Of a stretch of DNA of 64,000 nt, positions 13,563 through 23,923 are shown piece after piece. The stretch comes from Pseudoalteromonas rubra (lineage in GTDB: Bacteria; Pseudomonadota; Gammaproteobacteria; Enterobacterales; Alteromonadaceae). The first letter of the stretch is position 1. Each line of letters starts with the position of its first letter. Location of the stretch: NCBI RefSeq assembly GCF_005886805.2, contig NZ_CP045430.1:186001-250000 (forward strand), in the 5' to 3' direction. The translations under genes and the position numbers were made by a program. A model generated the notes under the pieces. The model was not told the DNA's origin. It was given only the letters and a program-made list of their open reading frames with translations, and searched no databases.

Positions 13563-16500
13563 GTGCAGCAGTTTGGCATCTATGAACAACTAATCACACA
13601 GGTAGTAGAGCAACAACTTGATCGAGAACGATTTTATGTTGGCGAACGTCAGCTAGAAAGTGATGAAGCAGCCATTTGGCTATCACGTTTTATGTCAAAG
13701 CTCATGCAACTTGCAATCGACAGCATACCAGCAGGTGAAAAAAACCGTTTGGAACAACAGATCCAGCTCGCTAACAAGTTTGTTTTTTGGCTTAAAGATC
13801 AGCTAAGTGAAGCACAGAGCATCGAAGAGAACTTAGTTAATACACAAGGTAAAATACTCACAGCCTTGTTCGATAAACGTAACCCTTTAGCAGCTGACCT
13901 GGCACAATATAGTGATACCATCTTTCCTCAAACCGGGCTTACTCAAAGCGAGTTGTTCTCTGGTGCTAATGCGGGCTTGTCTTTGGAGAGCGAGCTAAAG
14001 CGAGAAATACAGTCCTCAGATACAATATACTGGTTAGTTTCGTTTATCCGTTGGACAGGGATCCGTATATTCAAAGAGGTGCTGCGCGAATTTACTCAAA
14101 GTGGTAAAAAGCTAAAGGTCATTACCACCTCATACATGGGGGCTACAGATCAACGCGCCATTGACTTTTTGGCAGGTTTACCAAACACCGAAGTCAAAAT
14201 CAGCTATAACACACGCAATGAAAGGCTCCATGCCAAGTCTTATTTATTCATGCGTAACAACGGGTTTCATACAGGCTATATCGGCTCTTCCAACCTCTCA
14301 TACTCCGCACTATCAAACGGGCTTGAGTGGAACTTAAAGATCACGAGTCAGGAAATCCCTCATATAATCAAAAAGTCGCTCAGTACGTTCGAAACCTACT
14401 GGGAATCAGATGAATTTGAGTTATACACCGGTCAGGAAACCTGTAAGCAGAAACTCAAAGCAGCTTTATCAAACGATAAAGATCAGGTCTCAGATGTCAG
14501 CCACTATTATTTTGACTTAGCCCCTAAACCTCATCAACGCACCATACTTGATAAACTCAGTGCTGAACGAACACTCCACAATCGCACTAAAAACCTGGTA
14601 GTCGCTGCAACCGGTACAGGTAAAACTCTTATTTCCGCTTTCGACTTCCAGCAATTTATCAAAGACAAGCCAGGTGCCAAATTGCTATTTGTTGCACATC
14701 GAGAAGAAATATTAAAACAAGCCAGAAGCGCTTTTAGAGCCGTTTTAAAGGACAACCAATTTGGAGAACTTTGGGTTGGTAACCATAAGCCAGAGCATTA
14801 TCGTCAGCTCTTTGCATCAGTGCAAACACTCAACAACCAGCTTGACTCCCTAAACCTAACAGCCGATTACTTTGACTACGTGGTAATAGACGAAGTACAC
14901 CATATAGCAGCGCGTAGTTATCGAGATATTTTAGAGCTTTTTACTCCTCAAATACTACTGGGCCTGACAGCTACACCTGAAAGGCAGGATGGCGGAAATA
15001 TCCTAAACGACTTTGATGGGGTCATTGCGGCAGAATTACGATTGCCAGAAGCGATCAACCAAAGGCACTTATGTCCATTCCATTACTTTGCTATTGATGA
15101 TGAGACTGACTTACGGACTATTCCATGGAAACAAGGACGCTACGATATAGCCGCGCTTACACAGCTATACACGCATAACGACCAAAGAGCGCGAAAAATT
15201 ATCGCCAGTATGCAGGATATTCTCGTCAACGTGCATCACATCAAAGCGCTGGCGTTCTGTGTCAGTAAAGCGCATGCCAATTTCATGGCAAAGCAATTCA
15301 ATTTAAATGGCATCAGCGCAAATGTGTTAACCAGCGATAACACCCAAGAAAGACACAAAATGCAAGAGGCCCTACGCAGCGGCGAAATCAATATTTTGTG
15401 TGTGGTAGACATTTTCAACGAGGGTGTCGATATTCCAGAAATTGATACATTGCTGTTCTTACGTCCAACCGAAAGCCTGACATTGTTCTTACAACAACTA
15501 GGTCGGGGCCTGCGGCTTAGCAATGATGAAAAAGAGTGCTGTACCGTGCTCGATTTTGTCGGCAATGCCAGGCCAGAATACGATTTCGCCACCAAATTCA
15601 GGGGCCTGATTGGCAAAACAAATACCGCCATCGGCAATGAAATTAAAGACGGTTTTCCACATTTGCCGCTGGGTTGTCGCATTGAGCTACAAAAACAAAG
15701 CAAAGAAGTTATTCTCAATAATATTCGTAAAGCGGAGAATAACTTAAACAGGTTAAGAGCCCTAATTAACCGCTTTGCGCAGGATACCAACCTGCCTTTA
15801 ACCCTGGCCAATTTTCTACAGGTTAATCCCAGTGTCACGCTTGAGGATACCTATAAGGCCACACAATCTGGCATAAGCCGATGGCACATTCTGACTCAAC
15901 CTCAATTGGTTGAGCGTGAACTATTGGTCATTAAAGCTTATAACCGTGCAATCAATACCCAACTGCTGGTGTGTAACTCACTTACCTATCTGAGCTTTCT
16001 GCATGCTTTGTGCGACAACCAGTTCGATGTATCACAAGTCAAACAGTTTGATAGCAAAACAAAAGATGCTTTGGCTATGATAACGTTTTACAACTTTTGG
16101 GAAGCACCACAAAATCAGGCAAACTCGAAATCCGTAGCCGCGAGCCTTAGAGCATTAAACCATCCCGTTCTAACTGCTGAGCTAAAAGATGTATTATCTA
16201 TTTTGATCAATCGTGTCGAACACTTAGAACAACCACTGACATCTTTGCCTAACAAAGCACTACAGCTACATAGCCGATACACTCGAGAACAGATCTTCGC
16301 GGCCATGGGAGAGCACACCTTTGCAAAACGCTCATCATCACGCGAAGGCGTGAAAGAATTCAAGTCTCTGAATATTGAGACTTTGTTTGTTACTCTAAAT
16401 AAATGCGAAAAAGTTTACTCACCCACAACTTTATACAATGATTACGCCATCAGCCCTACCCTTTTCCACTGGCAAAGCCAGAACACAGCCCGCCCGGAAC

Positions 16501-16730
16501 GCGGAAAGGGGCTGAGTTATATCCAGCATAAAAAAACAGGAAAACGATTATTTTTGTTTGTTCGCGAACAAAACAAAGACGAAAACGGCAGAACCATGGG
16601 GTTTGTCAATTTTGGCGAGGTCAGCTACGTTCAGCACCAAGGCAGCCAACCTATGGATATCACCTGGAAATTGCACCACCCCATGCCTAATGATATTTGG
16701 CATGAGGCGGGGAAATTAGCGGTTGGATAG
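13563..16730 (+). CDS. PLD-nuclease / DEAD-like helicase with DUF3427-like C-terminus
   Basis: A 1055-residue protein with a GTG start preceded by AAGGAT. Order of domains: an N-terminal helical region (1-130); a phospholipase-D-like nuclease domain (about 130-290) with HAKSYLFMRNN and IGSSNLSYSAL; then a superfamily 2 helicase core with Walker A AATGTGKT, DEAH-box variant VIDEVHH and motif III LTATPER; motif VI QQLGRGLRL; and a C-terminal DUF3427-like region with YSPTTLYNDYAISPTLFHWQ and GRTMGFVNFGEVSYV. DUF3427-PLD-helicase proteins occur widely in defence islands and next to restriction genes. This copy converges on the four-gene minus-strand operon, whose second gene is also a PLD-helicase of a different subtype. 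Function is inferred as nucleic-acid recognition and cleavage; unproven. Confidence 0.88.
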   Translation: MQQFGIYEQLITQVVEQQLDRERFYVGERQLESDEAAIWLSRFMSKLMQLAIDSIPAGEKNRLEQQIQLANKFVFWLKDQLSEAQSIEENLVNTQGKILTALFDKRNPLAADLAQYSDTIFPQTGLTQSELFSGANAGLSLESELKREIQSSDTIYWLVSFIRWTGIRIFKEVLREFTQSGKKLKVITTSYMGATDQRAIDFLAGLPNTEVKISYNTRNERLHAKSYLFMRNNGFHTGYIGSSNLSYSALSNGLEWNLKITSQEIPHIIKKSLSTFETYWESDEFELYTGQETCKQKLKAALSNDKDQVSDVSHYYFDLAPKPHQRTILDKLSAERTLHNRTKNLVVAATGTGKTLISAFDFQQFIKDKPGAKLLFVAHREEILKQARSAFRAVLKDNQFGELWVGNHKPEHYRQLFASVQTLNNQLDSLNLTADYFDYVVIDEVHHIAARSYRDILELFTPQILLGLTATPERQDGGNILNDFDGVIAAELRLPEAINQRHLCPFHYFAIDDETDLRTIPWKQGRYDIAALTQLYTHNDQRARKIIASMQDILVNVHHIKALAFCVSKAHANFMAKQFNLNGISANVLTSDNTQERHKMQEALRSGEINILCVVDIFNEGVDIPEIDTLLFLRPTESLTLFLQQLGRGLRLSNDEKECCTVLDFVGNARPEYDFATKFRGLIGKTNTAIGNEIKDGFPHLPLGCRIELQKQSKEVILNNIRKAENNLNRLRALINRFAQDTNLPLTLANFLQVNPSVTLEDTYKATQSGISRWHILTQPQLVERELLVIKAYNRAINTQLLVCNSLTYLSFLHALCDNQFDVSQVKQFDSKTKDALAMITFYNFWEAPQNQANSKSVAASLRALNHPVLTAELKDVLSILINRVEHLEQPLTSLPNKALQLHSRYTREQIFAAMGEHTFAKRSSSREGVKEFKSLNIETLFVTLNKCEKVYSPTTLYNDYAISPTLFHWQSQNTARPERGKGLSYIQHKKTGKRLFLFVREQNKDENGRTMGFVNFGEVSYVQHQGSQPMDITWKLHHPMPNDIWHEAGKLAVG

Positions 16731-16773
16731 CGAATCTACCCAATACATGTAACCATATGAAAAAATAAAAATA

Positions 16774-19068
16774 TTATACACTGATACTATCAAGAAGATC
16801 ATCAAAGTAATTTTGTTGATTTTCTCCTTTAGGTGGTTGTTTTAGCTTCTTCTGTACAACACTTAACTTTTTCTTCAATTCAATCAACTCTATTTCCGCT
16901 AGGCGTTGTTTATCCAACCTCTGAAGTATTTGGAATAGAATATAAAAATCCACAAGGTACCTCTTGTTATTCTCTCTCCCGAACAAATCAGTCATAGAAT
17001 CCATATCAGATGTGGAAAGCTTACCCTTCAGACTTGATATAATATTTTTAACCTCTTCTATCGAGCTAATAAAATCTCGCTTTAGCGACGAGTCTGTAAT
17101 CATCTTCTCAAGTAGCACCGACACGTCTTTTTTGTTTGTTACTCGACAGTTTATCCTTCCGTCACGTAAATAGAAGCCCAAGCTGATATGACCAGGCCTA
17201 TATTTCTTATTGTATAAGTTATAAACAAGAAGCGCCACTAGTTCCTCATTTTGCATTCTGTCAGAGGTTTTATCTTTATTCCTCTTTTTAATATAAAACC
17301 AATCAATATTACAATCTGTTATAACTCTGATTTTATCAATCACATCTTTATCAACAAATGAATTCCACATTTCAAAAGAGTTTTCTTTAATAGGATACGG
17401 CTTGTTATTTAAGCGGATAAAAAGGTCAACTGGCTCAAAATCATTATTAAGATGATAGTCTATTTCAATAACACTTAACATAAAGTCATATATTTTATCT
17501 TGAACATTCAGCTCCAACTCATTGAATCTCAACCCATTTAGCTCCCTAAGTATTTTTAGGCGAGACAACTTAAATGCATTTAATTTTGGATATACTTTAT
17601 TTCCATTTTCATCGATATAAGTTTTGCCCATAAAACCAATTATGGACAGCAAGCGCTGCTGGCCATCAATAACTTCTTTGACATTGTTTTTGCTTTTAAA
17701 AACAAAAAGTGGCGGTAAGCTAATTCCTAATATAATACTTTCAATAATAGCAGACGCTTTAAATAGATTAATCCTTTCTGGGCGCTGGTAAGATGGCCTA
17801 ATTAAATATCTACTCCCGTTAACCTCCTCTACAATTTCCTCTACAGGAATTCTCGAAGGTTCAGGCTTTTGAACACGTAAAGACGCTAACTCAATTAGTT
17901 TTAGTTTTGCTTCATTTTCACTTTGTCGAAGTTCTTTAACTCTAGTTTTGAAATCATCATCCTTTATATATAAATCAAAGCTATGATGAAAAACCTCTTC
18001 AAGAAAAACAGAAGTAGAGTAATAACGCTCTATAATTGCTTTGTAGTGGTGACTATTTTCATATGAATAATCATTTGAGTTATCACTAAAGAACTTTTTA
18101 AATTTACTTATATTAACTTTGCTATAAACTTCATCAATATCAAAACCATCCTCTCTAAGAATATATAACCCCCATAACATACATTCATTAAGAAGCCTGT
18201 TATTAAAATCATTATCGAGTTTTGAAACCAAGTTCTCAACCTTATCAATTATCGAGAACAAGTTATCGCAAACTTCGTCAGGATTTTCAGTATTATCAGA
18301 TTTAACAGAGTATAGTAATTCCATCACTTCTGCGCGGTTTGACCCAGATGCAAATGTTTTAATTGGGAAAGATGAAAGAACAAGGCACTTTCTCAAAAAC
18401 TGTAAGATTACCGATATATCGTCAGATTTCTTTGATTTACTTATAAAAAGTTCATAAATACGCTTACCCAAATCAGGGTTACATAGTAACTTTTCTCTTA
18501 ACTTGTTTGTCAAATGATCTTCATCATAGGTCGCGTTATCTATCTCAGCACTACTCAAAGGTGTAATTCCCGAGTTATACCTTCTAAAAATCTCCTTTTT
18601 TATTTTATCTTCCAAAAGAGAACTCATTTTTGGTTCATTATGTACTTCAAACTCAAAGATTCGAATTTTTGCATCATCAAACAGCCCCTGAACTTCAGAG
18701 TCTAACTTACTAAAAACTTGCCCTTGCAATTGAGGTAGCTTTGTCAGACCTTTAATATTTAGCTTCAACTCTCCATCTTTAAACTTTTTTATAGTTTCAT
18801 ATCTTTGCCTTCCATCTATAACTTCTATCGATGCCCCTGAATTGAAGAAAATTAGAGGAGGAACATCTGTTCCAAGAAGAATGCTTTCGATAAAAAAAGT
18901 AGCCTTGCTATTGTCCCACACATAGTTCCTTTGATAGTAAGGGCTATAGTCAATTTTTCTTCTTCTTCGCTCACTAAAAAGGGTTTTAATTGAAATGGAA
19001 TAAACACTAGTTTTAATATGTTTTTTGAAAATATCTTCAAATTCTTGTTCTTTTAGAAAAGCACTCAT
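16774..19068 (-). CDS. Double DUF262 (GmrSD/ParB-like) protein
   Basis: A 764-residue protein containing two DUF262 units. The first, near residues 35-110, has YSPYYQRNYVWD and EVIDGRQRYETI; the second, at about residues 430-520, has RPSYQRPERIN and EVIDGQQRLLSIIGF. DUF262 is a ParB/Srx-like domain that hydrolyses or binds nucleotides and is the N-terminal half of GmrS/GmrD type IV restriction enzymes and of SspE. The usual partner HNH nuclease domain (DUF1524) is not seen; the C-terminus is a Lys/Leu-rich helical tail. The gene starts 3 bases after the putAbiC-like gene and is the last of a four-gene operon. It is strikingly A+T-rich compared with the flanking helicase genes, which suggests separate acquisition. 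Confidence 0.85.
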   Translation of the reverse strand: MSAFLKEQEFEDIFKKHIKTSVYSISIKTLFSERRRRKIDYSPYYQRNYVWDNSKATFFIESILLGTDVPPLIFFNSGASIEVIDGRQRYETIKKFKDGELKLNIKGLTKLPQLQGQVFSKLDSEVQGLFDDAKIRIFEFEVHNEPKMSSLLEDKIKKEIFRRYNSGITPLSSAEIDNATYDEDHLTNKLREKLLCNPDLGKRIYELFISKSKKSDDISVILQFLRKCLVLSSFPIKTFASGSNRAEVMELLYSVKSDNTENPDEVCDNLFSIIDKVENLVSKLDNDFNNRLLNECMLWGLYILREDGFDIDEVYSKVNISKFKKFFSDNSNDYSYENSHHYKAIIERYYSTSVFLEEVFHHSFDLYIKDDDFKTRVKELRQSENEAKLKLIELASLRVQKPEPSRIPVEEIVEEVNGSRYLIRPSYQRPERINLFKASAIIESIILGISLPPLFVFKSKNNVKEVIDGQQRLLSIIGFMGKTYIDENGNKVYPKLNAFKLSRLKILRELNGLRFNELELNVQDKIYDFMLSVIEIDYHLNNDFEPVDLFIRLNNKPYPIKENSFEMWNSFVDKDVIDKIRVITDCNIDWFYIKKRNKDKTSDRMQNEELVALLVYNLYNKKYRPGHISLGFYLRDGRINCRVTNKKDVSVLLEKMITDSSLKRDFISSIEEVKNIISSLKGKLSTSDMDSMTDLFGRENNKRYLVDFYILFQILQRLDKQRLAEIELIELKKKLSVVQKKLKQPPKGENQQNYFDDLLDSISV

Positions 19069-19071
19069 AAT

Positions 19072-20325
19072 TTACACCAAATCATCACAAAAAATTAAAT
19101 TTTTAAAGCCACACACATTAAATTCATAGTCAAGACAATTTTCCAATATACTCCCCATTATCTCGACATCATCAGGCTCATAGTATACGCCATATATCAA
19201 AAGTTCACTTAGCACTAGTTTGACAAAATTTATAAAACAATCAGAGCTCAATCCAAATGTAGCCTTAACCTTATCACGTTCACTAGTGACGATTTTAAAT
19301 TCAAAATCATTCCTGTATTCGGAACTAAATGCTATTGAAACCCCTTCATCTAAGCTGAAAATATATGACTCACGATAGCTATCCTCGAATTCGTTCAGCA
19401 ACTCTATTTGCATCTTACTAAGAAAACTTCTCGTTGCTTCTTTAACTTCTTGGCCAAAGCAAGCAAGTGCTCGGGCTTGCACTTGCTCGTCTAAGCCGTT
19501 TTGACTATCTAGTGTATCTTTAGTAAAGCTTAAAAAGTGTAACTTATAACAGTCAGAAAAGTGCTTAAGTAAGTTATACTTCAAAACCATTCTATATAGA
19601 CCACCCGCATCATTAGAAAAAGAATTGTAGTATATAATAAACAACTGAGACTCAGACAGCAAAGACCTTACGATCTTTATATATACAAATTTATCTCTAT
19701 CTTTTAGATTTGATTGATCTATGGACTTTATTAAGCGATAAAAAACTCTAAAATATAGTTGAAGTTGACCATCTTCAGTTGAAATCACCTCCTCATAAGC
19801 CTCGTGCCCTCTACTCTCTGGAGAACCATTAGATAAATAAAGGCTTACAACTCTAGATTTTACTGACTTAAAATAGTCACCATCTTGATGCTCATTATTT
19901 AAATCAGAAACAACATTTCTGTACAACTCTATCATCGAAAAGAAAATAGAATCAAACCTTTGTTCCATCAATGTCTTAGATTGTTCTTTAAACACCTCTC
20001 TAGACTGCTTAAACTCCTCACGCTGAAGCCTAAACTCTTCTGCTTGGATTGTTAGTGCTTCAACTTGTTTATCCAGTGCTATTCTATTATTTTTAAAGTC
20101 TCTTCGCTGTTCCTTCAGAGCGTTATAAAATAAAAGGACGCTACATAAAGTCCAAATAGAACCGACTACTCCACCAAAAAAATCACCAAAGACACCGAAC
20201 TTTCCAGCATTGATTCTAAGATCTGAATTTAAGTTCTCATTCCATAGAAATAGCACTATTAAAGGTAAAAGCACTAAATTCAGTAGTACTGCAACTCTAA
20301 TTATTATATTTGTATTCCTTTCCAA
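19072..20325 (-). CDS. putAbiC-like membrane-anchored abortive infection protein
   Basis: About 417 residues, with two N-terminal membrane segments (IIIRVAVLLNLVLLPLIVLF and a second around VVGSIWTLCSVLLFYNAL) separated by a short loop. A coiled coil rich in Gln/Glu/Arg follows, then a helical domain with the pattern of the putative phage abortive infection family (PF16872 type): QRFDSIFFSMIELYRNVV, YFRVFYRLIKSID and YIKIVRSLLSESQLFIIYYN. No ATG start exists. The TTG at 20325 is chosen because GGAG lies six bases before it; the frame also opens at a TTG at 20337 with no ribosome-binding site. It begins about 33 bases after the helicase stop and ends 3 bases before the DUF262 gene. A+T-rich like the DUF262 gene. 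Role in phage response is inferred from family resemblance only. Confidence 0.78.
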   Translation of the reverse strand: MERNTNIIIRVAVLLNLVLLPLIVLFLWNENLNSDLRINAGKFGVFGDFFGGVVGSIWTLCSVLLFYNALKEQRRDFKNNRIALDKQVEALTIQAEEFRLQREEFKQSREVFKEQSKTLMEQRFDSIFFSMIELYRNVVSDLNNEHQDGDYFKSVKSRVVSLYLSNGSPESRGHEAYEEVISTEDGQLQLYFRVFYRLIKSIDQSNLKDRDKFVYIKIVRSLLSESQLFIIYYNSFSNDAGGLYRMVLKYNLLKHFSDCYKLHFLSFTKDTLDSQNGLDEQVQARALACFGQEVKEATRSFLSKMQIELLNEFEDSYRESYIFSLDEGVSIAFSSEYRNDFEFKIVTSERDKVKATFGLSSDCFINFVKLVLSELLIYGVYYEPDDVEIMGSILENCLDYEFNVCGFKNLIFCDDLV

Positions 20326-20358
20326 TCTAAGCTCCAATTATTCTATTAGATTCGTTAA

Positions 20359-23331
20359 TCACCTCAACCTCGCAAACGTCACTAAACTATCGTCCGCGAT
20401 AATGGTTTTGTAATCTGGGTTGCGGGCGACCAGCAGGTATCTGGCTTCGCCCTCTTCGTTGTATTCTTTTTGCACGTCGCGCAGTAAAAACTGGGCGTCG
20501 CCTGATTCATCAAATCGTTCAATGGCGATGGTTTTACCAGTGATTGAACCAGCGTTATCGCTGCTGATCCGCTCTAGTACCAATAAATCGCCGTCCAGAA
20601 TGGGATTTTTACCGCCATTCATTGAGTTACCGCTGGCATGGGCCAGAAAGTGCTTGTCCGGATCTACCCTGCCAGCACGGTCAGGTGCCGGGCGCCATGT
20701 CATGTCGCTGTCGTCGCCAGTTTTAAAGTGACCGCAGGCAATTTTTAGATTGGGGAAATACGGCAACTGAACCACACTGGTGCTCTCGGGTTCACTTTGC
20801 TGTTCTGGCCTATCTGGCTCTTTTTCGCCAGAGACTTTATCCGGTTCAGGGGTGGCTGCTTGCAGCTCTGAAATACGCTTGTTTTCAATACGCTGAGTGT
20901 ATTCAGCCAGTCTGAGTTCAATAAGCTCTGAAACGCAGTCTGCCAGCTTGTCGATATCCTGGTCCGGGAGCTGGCCAATATTCACTTGAGCAACCAGCCG
21001 GGCTGTTTTCAGATCTTCACCGTTTTTTTCGACCTTAAACCAGGTTGTGCCTTGCTTGGCTTTTTTAAATCCTGTGTAGGCTTCAATGGGGTTACCCAGC
21101 CAATAACTGAACCAGGCATGGCTGTCTGGTGCCAGTGCTCGTTTAGATTCAGGCAGGTCATGTGCTTTAAGGTGCGGGTAGCGTGCTAAAATTGCCGCAC
21201 TGACATTAGCCAATTCAGCTAGGGTTGGTGCGACCCTGAAGCCATCGAGCTGTATAAAAGCTTGCAGTAAAATGGCCTTAAAACACTTAGTCATACTGGT
21301 TTGCTGTACAGCATTAAGCAGAAAATCAGCACGAGGCGCTAACCAGTCACCGCCGATTTGGTCACCGATATCGGCCAGCATCGAAAACCAGCTACCGTGT
21401 TGTTTATTTACTTTTTTCAGGTCGCCGTGGTGACGATAAAACTCGCTTGCACTCGGGCTATGACCAAGCAACTGGGCCAGATGCTCATAATCTTCCAGTG
21501 CTGTGGTGCGTTGTATTTTGGCCAGTTGCTGCCAAAAGTCAGTGATCTCCAGGTCAAAATTAATGAAACACCCATCGGGCAATTTCGGCTCTCTCAGTGC
21601 TTGCGTGACCCCTTTTGCGCCTTGCGCATCAAGCAGCGCCGCCGGTTTGTTCAAAAAACTATGGTGGTTGCCAATAAAATCCAGCACGGTGAGGTGGGTT
21701 TTGCCTTCACAGGTACGTAATCCCCGGCCAAGCTGCTGTAAAAACAGAATCTTGGAATCGCTGGGCCGCAGCATCAATACCGTATCAATGCTGGGTAAGT
21801 CGGTGCCTTCGTTAAATAAATCAACGGAGAATAAAATCTCAATCTGCCCTTGCTCAAGCTGCTTTAGCGCATCATTACGGCGTACCTGAGAGTCGCTGTG
21901 TACGGCCAGCGCCTTGACACCAGCATCATTAAAGTACCCGGCCATATGTTCGGCATGGCGCTTAGAAATGCAAAATGCCAGCGTGCGTTGCTGCTTACGC
22001 GCTTGCCATTCTTTTAATGCATGTGCCGCCCGTTTACTGGTGCCAAACTGATTTTCCAGTGCATCCGGGTCGAACCGGCCATTGCGCCAGGGAATTGCGG
22101 TGTAATCAACGTCCTGATCCCAAATACCATAATACTGAAATGGTACCAGTGTGCCGTTGTCGATCCCCTGAGTGAGGTTGCGTTCAAACACCAGGTTGTT
22201 GTCGCACAGTCCAAGTATATCGGCCTGATCGGTACGCTCCGGCGTGGCGGTTAAACCCAGCAAGAACTGTGGGGTAAAGTAGTTGAGTAATGCGCGGTAG
22301 ACCCGGGCACTGGCGTGGTGAAATTCATCCACCACGATATAGTCAAAATGTTCCGGCGCAAAGCGCTGCAAATGGCGCGCTTGCCCTAACGTCTGGACTG
22401 AGGCAAAAAGGCAATCGGCGTCCGAGTCTTTCTGTTTACCCGTGTATAGCCCGGTTTTGCATTGCAATAATCGCGCGAAGGTGCGCTGGGCCTGAGTCAG
22501 GATCTCCTCGCGATGAGCCACAAACAAAATACGCTTTGCATGCATTTGTTGCGCATCAAATACCGAAAGCCAGGTTTTACCCATTCCGGTTGCCAGCACC
22601 ACAAGCCCCCGCCTGAAGCCCTGACGACGTGTGTCTGCCAGCGCATCCAATGCCAGCTGTTGATCAGCACGAGGGGTAGCAGGCTCTGCATCACTGGCGT
22701 CTTCCGCTTCTCCTGCCACCATAAACTGCGGCGCTTTTCGTCTATGTATATAGCTATCAATCCAGCTATGGCACAGAGTTTTGACGTTGCAATGAGAAAA
22801 CAGCTCAGCAAAAGACTGGCGAATATGGTTGAATTCGATGGCACCTTTGCTGCCTGGCGGATGGGTATAGTCGTGGCGAAAACACCATTCAAGCCCAGTA
22901 GTTAGAGCACTTTTACTGATATTGTTTGAACCGATAAAAGCGCAACCCGCTGCAACCTCTGCACTGTTTTCCTGTGTTTTGACAAAAATATACGACTTCA
23001 TATGAAAGCTCTGGCTTTTATCGCTTTCATAGATGCGAATATCAGCGCCGCGCTCAACCAGAGTCATTAGCTCCCGTAATGCCACTGGACTGGTAATGTC
23101 CAGATAATCAGAAGTGAGCAGTTTTAATTGCGCGCCACTGCGTAGTGCCTCAAGCAGAGGGTCGAACAACAACGCCAGTCCGCTTTGTTGAATAAAAGAT
23201 ACAGTGATTTCTATTTCGTCGGCATGGTTAATGGCATGCACAAGCTTTGGCAATAAGGGGTCAGAGCCACCCGTCGTCAGCTGACGTGCGCTATTTTGCA
23301 ATACGGTGCTCTGACTAAAACTATTCACCAC
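20359..23331 (-). CDS. PLD-nuclease / helicase / S24 (LexA-like) fusion protein
   Basis: A 990-residue, three-part protein. Residues about 20-190: PLD-like nuclease domain with FHMKSYIFVKT and FIGSNNISKSAL. Residues about 220-580: SF2 helicase with Walker A LATGMGKTWLS, DEFH-type box VVDEFHHASA, LTATPERTD and LQQLGRGLRT. A central helical region follows. Residues about 860-990 are a peptidase S24/LexA-like domain with the serine motif ASGNSMNGGKNPILDGDLLV. The lysine normally expected about 35-40 residues later (as in LexA/UmuD) is not obvious: FLLRDVQKE stands there. The GTG start overlaps the methyltransferase stop by 11 bases, so the two are coupled. The putAbiC-like and DUF262 genes follow in the same direction. 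A damage- or signal-gated nuclease is a reasonable inference. Confidence 0.88.
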   Translation of the reverse strand: MVNSFSQSTVLQNSARQLTTGGSDPLLPKLVHAINHADEIEITVSFIQQSGLALLFDPLLEALRSGAQLKLLTSDYLDITSPVALRELMTLVERGADIRIYESDKSQSFHMKSYIFVKTQENSAEVAAGCAFIGSNNISKSALTTGLEWCFRHDYTHPPGSKGAIEFNHIRQSFAELFSHCNVKTLCHSWIDSYIHRRKAPQFMVAGEAEDASDAEPATPRADQQLALDALADTRRQGFRRGLVVLATGMGKTWLSVFDAQQMHAKRILFVAHREEILTQAQRTFARLLQCKTGLYTGKQKDSDADCLFASVQTLGQARHLQRFAPEHFDYIVVDEFHHASARVYRALLNYFTPQFLLGLTATPERTDQADILGLCDNNLVFERNLTQGIDNGTLVPFQYYGIWDQDVDYTAIPWRNGRFDPDALENQFGTSKRAAHALKEWQARKQQRTLAFCISKRHAEHMAGYFNDAGVKALAVHSDSQVRRNDALKQLEQGQIEILFSVDLFNEGTDLPSIDTVLMLRPSDSKILFLQQLGRGLRTCEGKTHLTVLDFIGNHHSFLNKPAALLDAQGAKGVTQALREPKLPDGCFINFDLEITDFWQQLAKIQRTTALEDYEHLAQLLGHSPSASEFYRHHGDLKKVNKQHGSWFSMLADIGDQIGGDWLAPRADFLLNAVQQTSMTKCFKAILLQAFIQLDGFRVAPTLAELANVSAAILARYPHLKAHDLPESKRALAPDSHAWFSYWLGNPIEAYTGFKKAKQGTTWFKVEKNGEDLKTARLVAQVNIGQLPDQDIDKLADCVSELIELRLAEYTQRIENKRISELQAATPEPDKVSGEKEPDRPEQQSEPESTSVVQLPYFPNLKIACGHFKTGDDSDMTWRPAPDRAGRVDPDKHFLAHASGNSMNGGKNPILDGDLLVLERISSDNAGSITGKTIAIERFDESGDAQFLLRDVQKEYNEEGEARYLLVARNPDYKTIIADDSLVTFARLR

Positions 23332-23923
23332 TCACCCTTTCCAACAAAGCATTAAGCCAGCGTTCGTGTTCGCGGCCGGGGCGTTGGTCGCCGGTTTGCC
23401 AGGTTTTGCAGGCTTTAAGGCCGGTGTTTTGTGCAAGCAAAGTGTTCAGGCTTTGCTCTGTGAGATCGGTGAATGCGCGGCCACCTGTGGTGCGTTCGCC
23501 TTCGCCGTATTTAAACGAGATATAGATGATGCCTTCTGGTTTGAGTGCTTTTTGCAGGCGCTGAAAAACCGCCGAGAGCTCTGCCATGGGGACATGTAAC
23601 AGGCTTGCGCAGCACCATATGGCGTCATAAGTGTTGAGGTCTCTGAGTTCGTCGAAACTGAAGCAACCTACGGGTTGTTCCAGATGGAAGCTGGCGATGT
23701 TGGCAAGCTCGGCGCAGGCATCGAAGGCTTCGACCCGGTAGCCGAGGTTTTTAAACGCCAGTGCATCGCGGCCTGAGCCGCAGCCGGCATCGAGGATTTT
23801 TCCGCCTTTTGGTATGAGAGGTAAAAATTCGTCGTACAGTGGCTGCATATTTACCGCGAACGTTTCTTCGGCAAAACTGACTGCGTTGCGGCTGTAGTAT
23901 TCTAATGTAGAGTCAGACATCAC
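23321..23923 (-). CDS. Class I SAM-dependent methyltransferase
   Basis: A 200-residue Rossmann-fold methyltransferase. Motif I is ILDAGCGSGRDALAF, the acidic residue ending strand 2 is in YRVEAFDAC, and motif IV-like YDAIWCCASLLHVP follows. The C-terminal part has GIIYISFKYGEGERTT. There is no DNA-target-recognition domain and no N6-adenine catalytic (D/N/S)PP(Y/F) motif, so small-molecule or protein methylation is as likely as nucleic-acid modification. It is the first gene of the four-gene operon and overlaps the next start by 11 bases. A tandem ATG ATG start follows a GGGTGAG-type ribosome-binding site. Confidence 0.87.
   Translation of the reverse strand: MMSDSTLEYYSRNAVSFAEETFAVNMQPLYDEFLPLIPKGGKILDAGCGSGRDALAFKNLGYRVEAFDACAELANIASFHLEQPVGCFSFDELRDLNTYDAIWCCASLLHVPMAELSAVFQRLQKALKPEGIIYISFKYGEGERTTGGRAFTDLTEQSLNTLLAQNTGLKACKTWQTGDQRPGREHERWLNALLERVSGE

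Follow-up and report, generated by a model that had tools for sequence, protein, structure and literature searches.

A putAbiC and double DUF262 gene pair as a candidate anti-phage module in a cargo slot between two restriction helicases of Pseudoalteromonas rubra

Gene content of the locus

The analyzed window is a stretch of 64,000 nucleotides of Pseudoalteromonas rubra (contig NZ_CP045430.1, positions 186,001 to 250,000), which lies on contig 2 (1.35 Mb) of a genome of two contigs and 5.94 Mb. Four consecutive minus-strand genes in it encode a class I S-adenosylmethionine methyltransferase (MTase), a helicase with a phospholipase D (PLD) nuclease domain and an S24-like C-terminal domain (PLD-helicase-S24), a putAbiC-family protein, and a protein with two DUF262 (GmrSD_N) units, here called double DUF262 (Table 1). 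The arrangement given in the original prediction was borne out by open reading frame (ORF) calls and spacing: MTase and helicase overlap by 11 bases, helicase and putAbiC are separated by 21 or 33 bases depending on the putAbiC start, and putAbiC and double DUF262 by 3 bases. The TTG at 20325 is preceded by GGAG and is the likely start codon of putAbiC.

Table 1. Features of the locus and of two further double DUF262 loci with an upstream partner.
Feature	Stretch	Coordinates	Strand	Length and remarks
Class I S-adenosylmethionine methyltransferase (MTase)	Window	23321..23923	-	200 amino acids (aa), GTG start
PLD nuclease + superfamily 2 (SF2) helicase + S24-like C-terminal domain (PLD-helicase-S24)	Window	20359..23331	-	990 aa, GTG start; slot boundary gene
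putAbiC-family protein	Window	19072..20337	-	421 aa (TTG), or 417 aa from TTG at 20325
Double DUF262 (GmrSD_N) protein	Window	16774..19068	-	764 aa
SauUSI-like PLD-helicase with DUF3427	Window	13563..16730	+	1055 aa, convergent; other slot boundary gene
Cargo slot, delimited by the stop codons of the convergent restriction helicases	Window	16731..20358	.	3628 base pairs (bp), 33% guanine + cytosine (GC)
Upstream partner of double DUF262	L077	8460-9980		506 aa; no Pfam match
Upstream partner of double DUF262	L104	6559-7938		459 aa; no Pfam match

Pfam labels agree with these descriptions. PLDc_2, ResIII, Helicase_C, and Peptidase_S24 were matched in the helicase, the last with 25.2 bits against a cut-off of 23.3, while putAbiC (PF16872) was matched with 50.9 bits (cut-off 22) and GmrSD_N in two stretches with 105 bits. 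Homologues of the helicase, putAbiC, and double DUF262 occur in protein databases and those of the MTase in 40 fetched loci, and all four ORFs are genuine genes. One helicase homologue, with 91% identity, is named P. rubra. A consensus scan of the region gave 11 promoter-like sites, below the shuffle mean of 16.8, and is uninformative as to the single transcript proposed in the original prediction.

Two modules in one apparent operon

GC content amounts to 53% in the MTase and 50% in the helicase, and to 34 and 33% in putAbiC and double DUF262, respectively, with the break at the stop codon of the helicase. All 40 fetched relatives of the helicase are directly preceded by the MTase on the same strand, the MTase being in two pieces in L219 and a match of 29% identity in L233; neither putAbiC nor double DUF262 was matched in the fetched stretches, whose flanks span at most 10 kb and often less. 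Half of these 40 loci were chosen from the higher-ranking matches in the order, where 55 of 295 genomes matched, and the other 20 come from the 25 further congeners with a match; in L234 and L235 the helicase match extends only to about residue 707. Because of the GC break at the gene junction and the occurrence of the MTase-helicase pair without putAbiC-DUF262 in 40 of 40 loci, the apparent four-gene operon is two modules, MTase with PLD-helicase-S24 and putAbiC with double DUF262. The four-gene combination of the original prediction was not recovered from the DUF262 side either: the MTase is absent from the fetched stretches of all 79 double DUF262 loci, whose flanks likewise span at most 10 kb and often less, and a helicase match was found in only two of them (L041, 25% and partial; L078, 35%). 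The refuting condition named in the original prediction itself thus speaks against a single four-part system.

The MTase-helicase pair is an old, resident restriction-type pair, and the helicase was found in 26 of 108 genus genomes (E <= 1e-150). The S24-like end of the helicase was compared at residues 903 and 951 in 121 aligned proteins: 119 retain the serine, and at the position corresponding to the catalytic lysine of the LexA motifs 119 have an arginine, two proteins being gapped. The alignment is compatible with a LexA-like end that is perhaps a sensing domain instead of a self-cleaving one. The DNA methyltransferase motif [DNS]PP[YFWH] was not found in the MTase. Links to defence, attributed to all four families in the original prediction, are clear for the helicase, putAbiC, and DUF262, whereas the MTase is linked only through its partner and a partial match to the PADLOC model mad2. 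In one order genome (L225), the MTase, PLD-helicase-S24, and a DUF3427 PLD-helicase occur in tandem on one strand.

putAbiC and double DUF262 as a conserved pair

The 79 double DUF262 loci comprise 77 from genome contigs and two viral ones; the genome loci were found through two peptide patterns, and their number is not an estimate of prevalence. A match to the putAbiC profile lies directly upstream of double DUF262 in 29 of them, and in the 26 loci with a full-length partner the spacing ranges from -74 to +12 bp. All 26 full-length partners carry two predicted N-terminal transmembrane (TM) segments. Pairwise distances of the two proteins correlate (r = 0.84, 27 pairs), and none of 2000 permutations reached as high a value. 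In a quick tree of 64 DUF262 proteins, which has one long branch (L104), the 28 putAbiC-linked proteins form a single clade with a Shimodaira-Hasegawa-like approximate likelihood ratio test (SH-aLRT) support of 100 and with labels from Pseudomonadota, Bacteroidota, Planctomycetota, Spirochaetota, and Bacillota. At L032 (Shewanella sairae), putAbiC in front of double DUF262 is apparently in pieces and the DUF262 ORF is open.

Of the 23 loci that were scored, 14 lack a co-directional ORF of >=100 aa in the 150 bp upstream of the pair, which therefore probably has its own promoter there. The pair sits directly behind a type IIG enzyme in two of the 23 (L040, L043), and behind type I HsdS (L059) and Wadjet JetC (L070) in one each. 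No defence family was matched by the upstream ORFs of L027, L046, L063, and L100; the ninth locus with such an ORF (L050) was outside the scan. A scan of neighbours, which took 87 of 177 listed proteins and had no control set, gave type IIG, Wadjet, Druantia-type methylase, type I, and type II among the 25 listed of 100 matching PADLOC families, with one or two members each.

The pair is rare. Double DUF262 was found in two of 108 congeners (E <= 1e-30), and its profile matched one of 369 class genomes (E <= 1e-60), the window's own. The putAbiC profile matched four of these 369 (E <= 1e-10), near its whole length only in the window's own genome. Among 148 genomes drawn from the order, double DUF262 was matched in 22, but nearly at full length only in the window's own and in G069 (37% identity).

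The membrane anchoring of putAbiC stood up as a prediction. Its predicted build consists of two N-terminal TM segments (11-29 and 53-71 in the 421-aa numbering), a long helical stalk, and a cytosolic helical and alpha/beta domain; the TM cut-off is crude, since part of the DUF262 fold passes it too. The PADLOC AbiP profile gave a partial match to residues 116-253 (5e-8, 31 bits) and AbiC a match of 8.5e-4. No toxic fold was found in putAbiC. Relatives of putAbiC occur in at least 80 viral contigs (L106-L185) and the double DUF262 profile in three, and putAbiC alone may be common in prophages.

The double DUF262 protein and a possible exchange of its effector

Both DUF262 halves carry the QR, DGQ/RQR, and FxxxN motifs, with strings starting at residues 44, 85, and 161 in the first half and at 426, 468, and 550 in the second. 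The best structural matches of the predicted model were BrxU and SspE, followed by DndI with a lower match, and a resemblance to ParB was also found. In the 2023 PADLOC-DB, the best match was NsnA (187 bits, 1.1e-55, two stretches), with weaker matches to PD-T4-2_A, a type II enzyme model, and SspE. No nuclease was recognized in the protein by HNH/DUF1524 Pfam models, an HNH profile built from its relatives, or the [DE]HxxP motif, and no second match to double DUF262 was present in its own genome at E <= 0.001.

Many relatives without putAbiC are longer proteins of about 860 aa with a C-terminal HNH nuclease, which was confirmed by Pfam in six of six scanned (L048, L054, L075, L084, L085, L086). 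Three of these proteins (L084, L085, L086) also carry N-terminal DUF4379 treble-clef zinc-finger repeats. By HNH profile, 37 of the 79 loci have HNH, 29 putAbiC, 13 neither, and none both. For the 60 complete loci, the numbers are 25 with HNH only, 27 with putAbiC only, eight with neither, and again none with both, the other 19 having been dropped for a protein under 700 aa, an open end, or under 1300 bp upstream. In other lineages, HNH or another partner takes the place of putAbiC beside a constant DUF262 core.

The eight complete loci with neither feature are varied. L036 and L090 have an upstream AlbA/Schlafen (SLFN_AlbA_2) protein and lack HNH, and the upstream partners of L077 and L104 (Table 1) may represent yet another kind of effector for double DUF262. 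An AAA ATPase lies downstream in L088, L038 probably has an out-of-frame HNH, the domain being present in L069, its near twin, and nothing was recognized in L087 and L097. Independent exchanges are few, because the putAbiC clade has one origin; the two AlbA-linked DUF262 proteins, placed with the HNH-bearing ones with a support of 80, would be a second independent exchange.

A cargo slot between convergent helicases

The convergent SauUSI-like DUF3427 helicase, which matches the PADLOC model mREase_IV with 729 bits, ends 43 bases past the stop codon of double DUF262. The same two helicases are convergent in 10 of 20 fetched congeners, at distances of about 670 to 4990 bp. In four close relatives (L256, L258, L259, L260), DNA similarity extends up to window positions 16721-16726 and resumes at 20357-20366, corresponding to both stop codons, and the junctions of all ten convergent congeners diverge at the stop codons. 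In the closest congener (G301), the DNA flanking the slot on either side is 90% identical, and about 670 bp separate the helicases.

Known defence genes occupy the slot in five of the ten congeners, and the other five have weak or no defence matches. The former hold HamA and HamB of Hachiman (L263; 375 and 1015 bits), a dCTP deaminase (L267 and L274), NACHT (L259), and CARF6 with an ORC/CDC6-like ATPase, a phosphoesterase, and a transposase-like ORF (L260). The latter hold an ORC/CDC6-like ATPase (L266), a DUF6575 pair (L258), two proteins of 143 and 293 aa of which one weakly matches a candidate defence model (L270), and small ORFs, some of which resemble PDDEXK_11 nucleases (L256 and L273). 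The DUF6575 pair and the two proteins of L270 may be new systems. The main cargo runs in the direction of PLD-helicase-S24 in eight of ten slots, and because it mostly shares this direction, cargo resembles the tail of an operon. Slot GC ranges from 32 to 38% and is in each case lower than the GC of the fetched stretch as a whole (38-46%). Outside the genus, no such slot pattern was seen at the order helicase loci by downstream ORF lengths, GC, and first residues, with domains unscanned. In another close relative (L257, 3072-8617), a GHKL ATPase and a receiver-like protein follow the helicase pair, and a C5 DNA methylase and a Vsr endonuclease occupy the place of the convergent helicase.

Proposed working and alternatives

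We infer that putAbiC and double DUF262 act in phage defence with DUF262 as sensor and putAbiC as killer, and the manner of action given here is of the same kind. It is reasonably likely that they form a horizontally acquired two-gene anti-phage module, in which a doubled GmrSD-type sensor dependent on nucleoside triphosphates (NTPs) drives a two-pass membrane effector, not a nuclease. The locus holds two modules head to tail, the resident MTase with PLD-helicase-S24, followed in the slot by putAbiC-DUF262, which would be acquired and self-contained. Double DUF262, a putative cis-duplicated NTP-binding unit of the GmrSD type, would serve as both sensor and switch and would probably be triggered by altered or invading nucleic acid. 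Once triggered, it would activate the two-pass, long-stalked putAbiC partner, which may halt infected cells, either by damaging the membrane or through arrest, as in abortive infection. Of the roles divided among four proteins in the original prediction, the split into sensor and effector is thus plausible within the putAbiC-DUF262 half, and one four-part system is unsupported.

A single defence system in which MTase, nuclease-helicase, membrane effector, and DUF262 cooperate would fit the shared strand and tight spacing, and the pair is also found just behind type IIG, HsdS, and JetC genes elsewhere. The presence of the MTase-helicase pair, but not of putAbiC-DUF262, in all 40 fetched relatives, the lack of the MTase in all 79 double DUF262 loci, the GC break, and the other genes in the slot of close relatives all speak against it, and such a system is very improbable and already largely refuted. 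The same positions behind restriction or defence genes (four of 23 scored loci, and the window) could also mean that the pair is a back-up coupled to the restriction system in front, killing when that system is inhibited; TgvAB, another DUF262 system, sits inside a type I cluster (PMC12409362). Such a coupling has a slim chance, given the 14 scored loci with no close co-directional ORF upstream and the four with an upstream ORF that lacks a defence match.

The roles within the pair could also be distributed otherwise. If putAbiC were a membrane tether or a sensor, for example of DNA injection, the harm would come from double DUF262 through NTP depletion or an unrecognized nucleic-acid activity, which would agree with the NTP binding and hydrolysis of DUF262 proteins (PMC10952713) and with the lack of a toxic fold found in putAbiC. 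However, HNH-bearing relatives join the DUF262 part to a separate effector domain, and the many viral contigs with putAbiC, set against three with the DUF262 profile, suggest that putAbiC can act without DUF262, so this distribution is unlikely. Two tightly linked genes with the membrane protein first, in a location with changing contents, would also suit a plain toxin-antitoxin system in which DUF262 restrains putAbiC as a membrane toxin, with the pair maintained by addiction and protecting against phage only incidentally. Partnerless DUF262 relatives with their own HNH nuclease are unlikely antitoxins, though, and a protein of 764 aa with a complete set of NTPase motifs in each half is large for one, which leaves this explanation improbable. 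The sensor-driven membrane effector is retained as the preferred reading.

A broader proposal, held tentatively and at slightly less than even chance, is that a tandem DUF262 sensor exchanges its output between HNH in cis, AlbA/Schlafen in trans, and a two-pass membrane protein, and that recognition of invading DNA would here lead to membrane collapse. If true, a restriction enzyme would here have become a switch for abortive infection. The relay of the DUF262 signal is known for only a few of its defence systems, and a constant DUF262 core with a differing effector (nuclease, AlbA/Schlafen, or membrane protein) offers a natural experiment that parts sensing from killing, while putAbiC gains a testable role. 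The two-helicase slot of Pseudoalteromonas is a compact hunting ground for further short defence systems and is worth mining because some cargoes match defence families weakly or not at all.

Comparison with known systems

DUF262 has been described in at least six defence systems, GmrSD, BrxU, SspE, Menshen, Dazbog, and PD-T4-2 (PMC10952713). With the DUF262 + DUF1524 enzymes GmrSD, BrxU, SspE, and DndI, the window protein shares the DUF262 unit with its QR, DGQQR, and FxxxN motifs as well as the structural resemblance of its model. It differs from them in having two DUF262 units per chain and a membrane partner instead of a recognized His-Me/HNH nuclease. No publication was found for DUF262 with putAbiC, for putAbiC, or for "putative phage abortive infection" in a literature search that held few subscription papers and no bioRxiv, a search for NsnA gave unrelated papers only, and the combination is not described in the consulted passages of other papers; the pair may be in print elsewhere.

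NsnA, the best PADLOC match, belongs to Menshen (NsnABC), and an NsnA-type DUF262 protein is the component shared with that system. In Menshen, the partner of DUF262 is a predicted OLD nuclease (PMC10952713), whereas models of OLD or Nsn partners are unmatched by the four operon proteins and the convergent neighbour, and DUF262 is here partnered by putAbiC. TgvAB and GrwAB of Vibrio cholerae are two-gene DUF262-based systems in defence clusters (PMC12137116, PMC12409362). There, DUF262 is present in both proteins and DUF1524 in one, while here one protein holds both DUF262 units and the partner is a membrane protein; no second DUF262 protein or DUF1524 was found among the four operon proteins and the convergent neighbour.

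Both flanking helicases share PLD and helicase domains with type IV restriction enzymes of the SauUSI type, and the convergent one has DUF3427. In contrast, the minus-strand helicase ends in an S24-like domain instead of DUF3427 and has a fixed MTase partner. SauUSI is described as consisting of PLD, ATPase, and a C-terminal SRA domain (PMC12707154).

With AbiP and AbiC, the putAbiC protein of the window shares the putAbiC Pfam domain, and their profiles match it, that of AbiP over part of the protein. PdpSau, likened to AbiP by its authors, reportedly affects the permeability of the membrane and its potential during abortive infection (PMC10127798). The window putAbiC differs from AbiP, AbiC, and PdpSau in its two TM segments, long stalk, extra C-terminal domain, and constant DUF262 neighbour. 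AbiP, AbiC, and PdpSau are known as single-gene systems. Set beside these systems, putAbiC-DUF262 is regarded as a new variant of DUF262-based defence.
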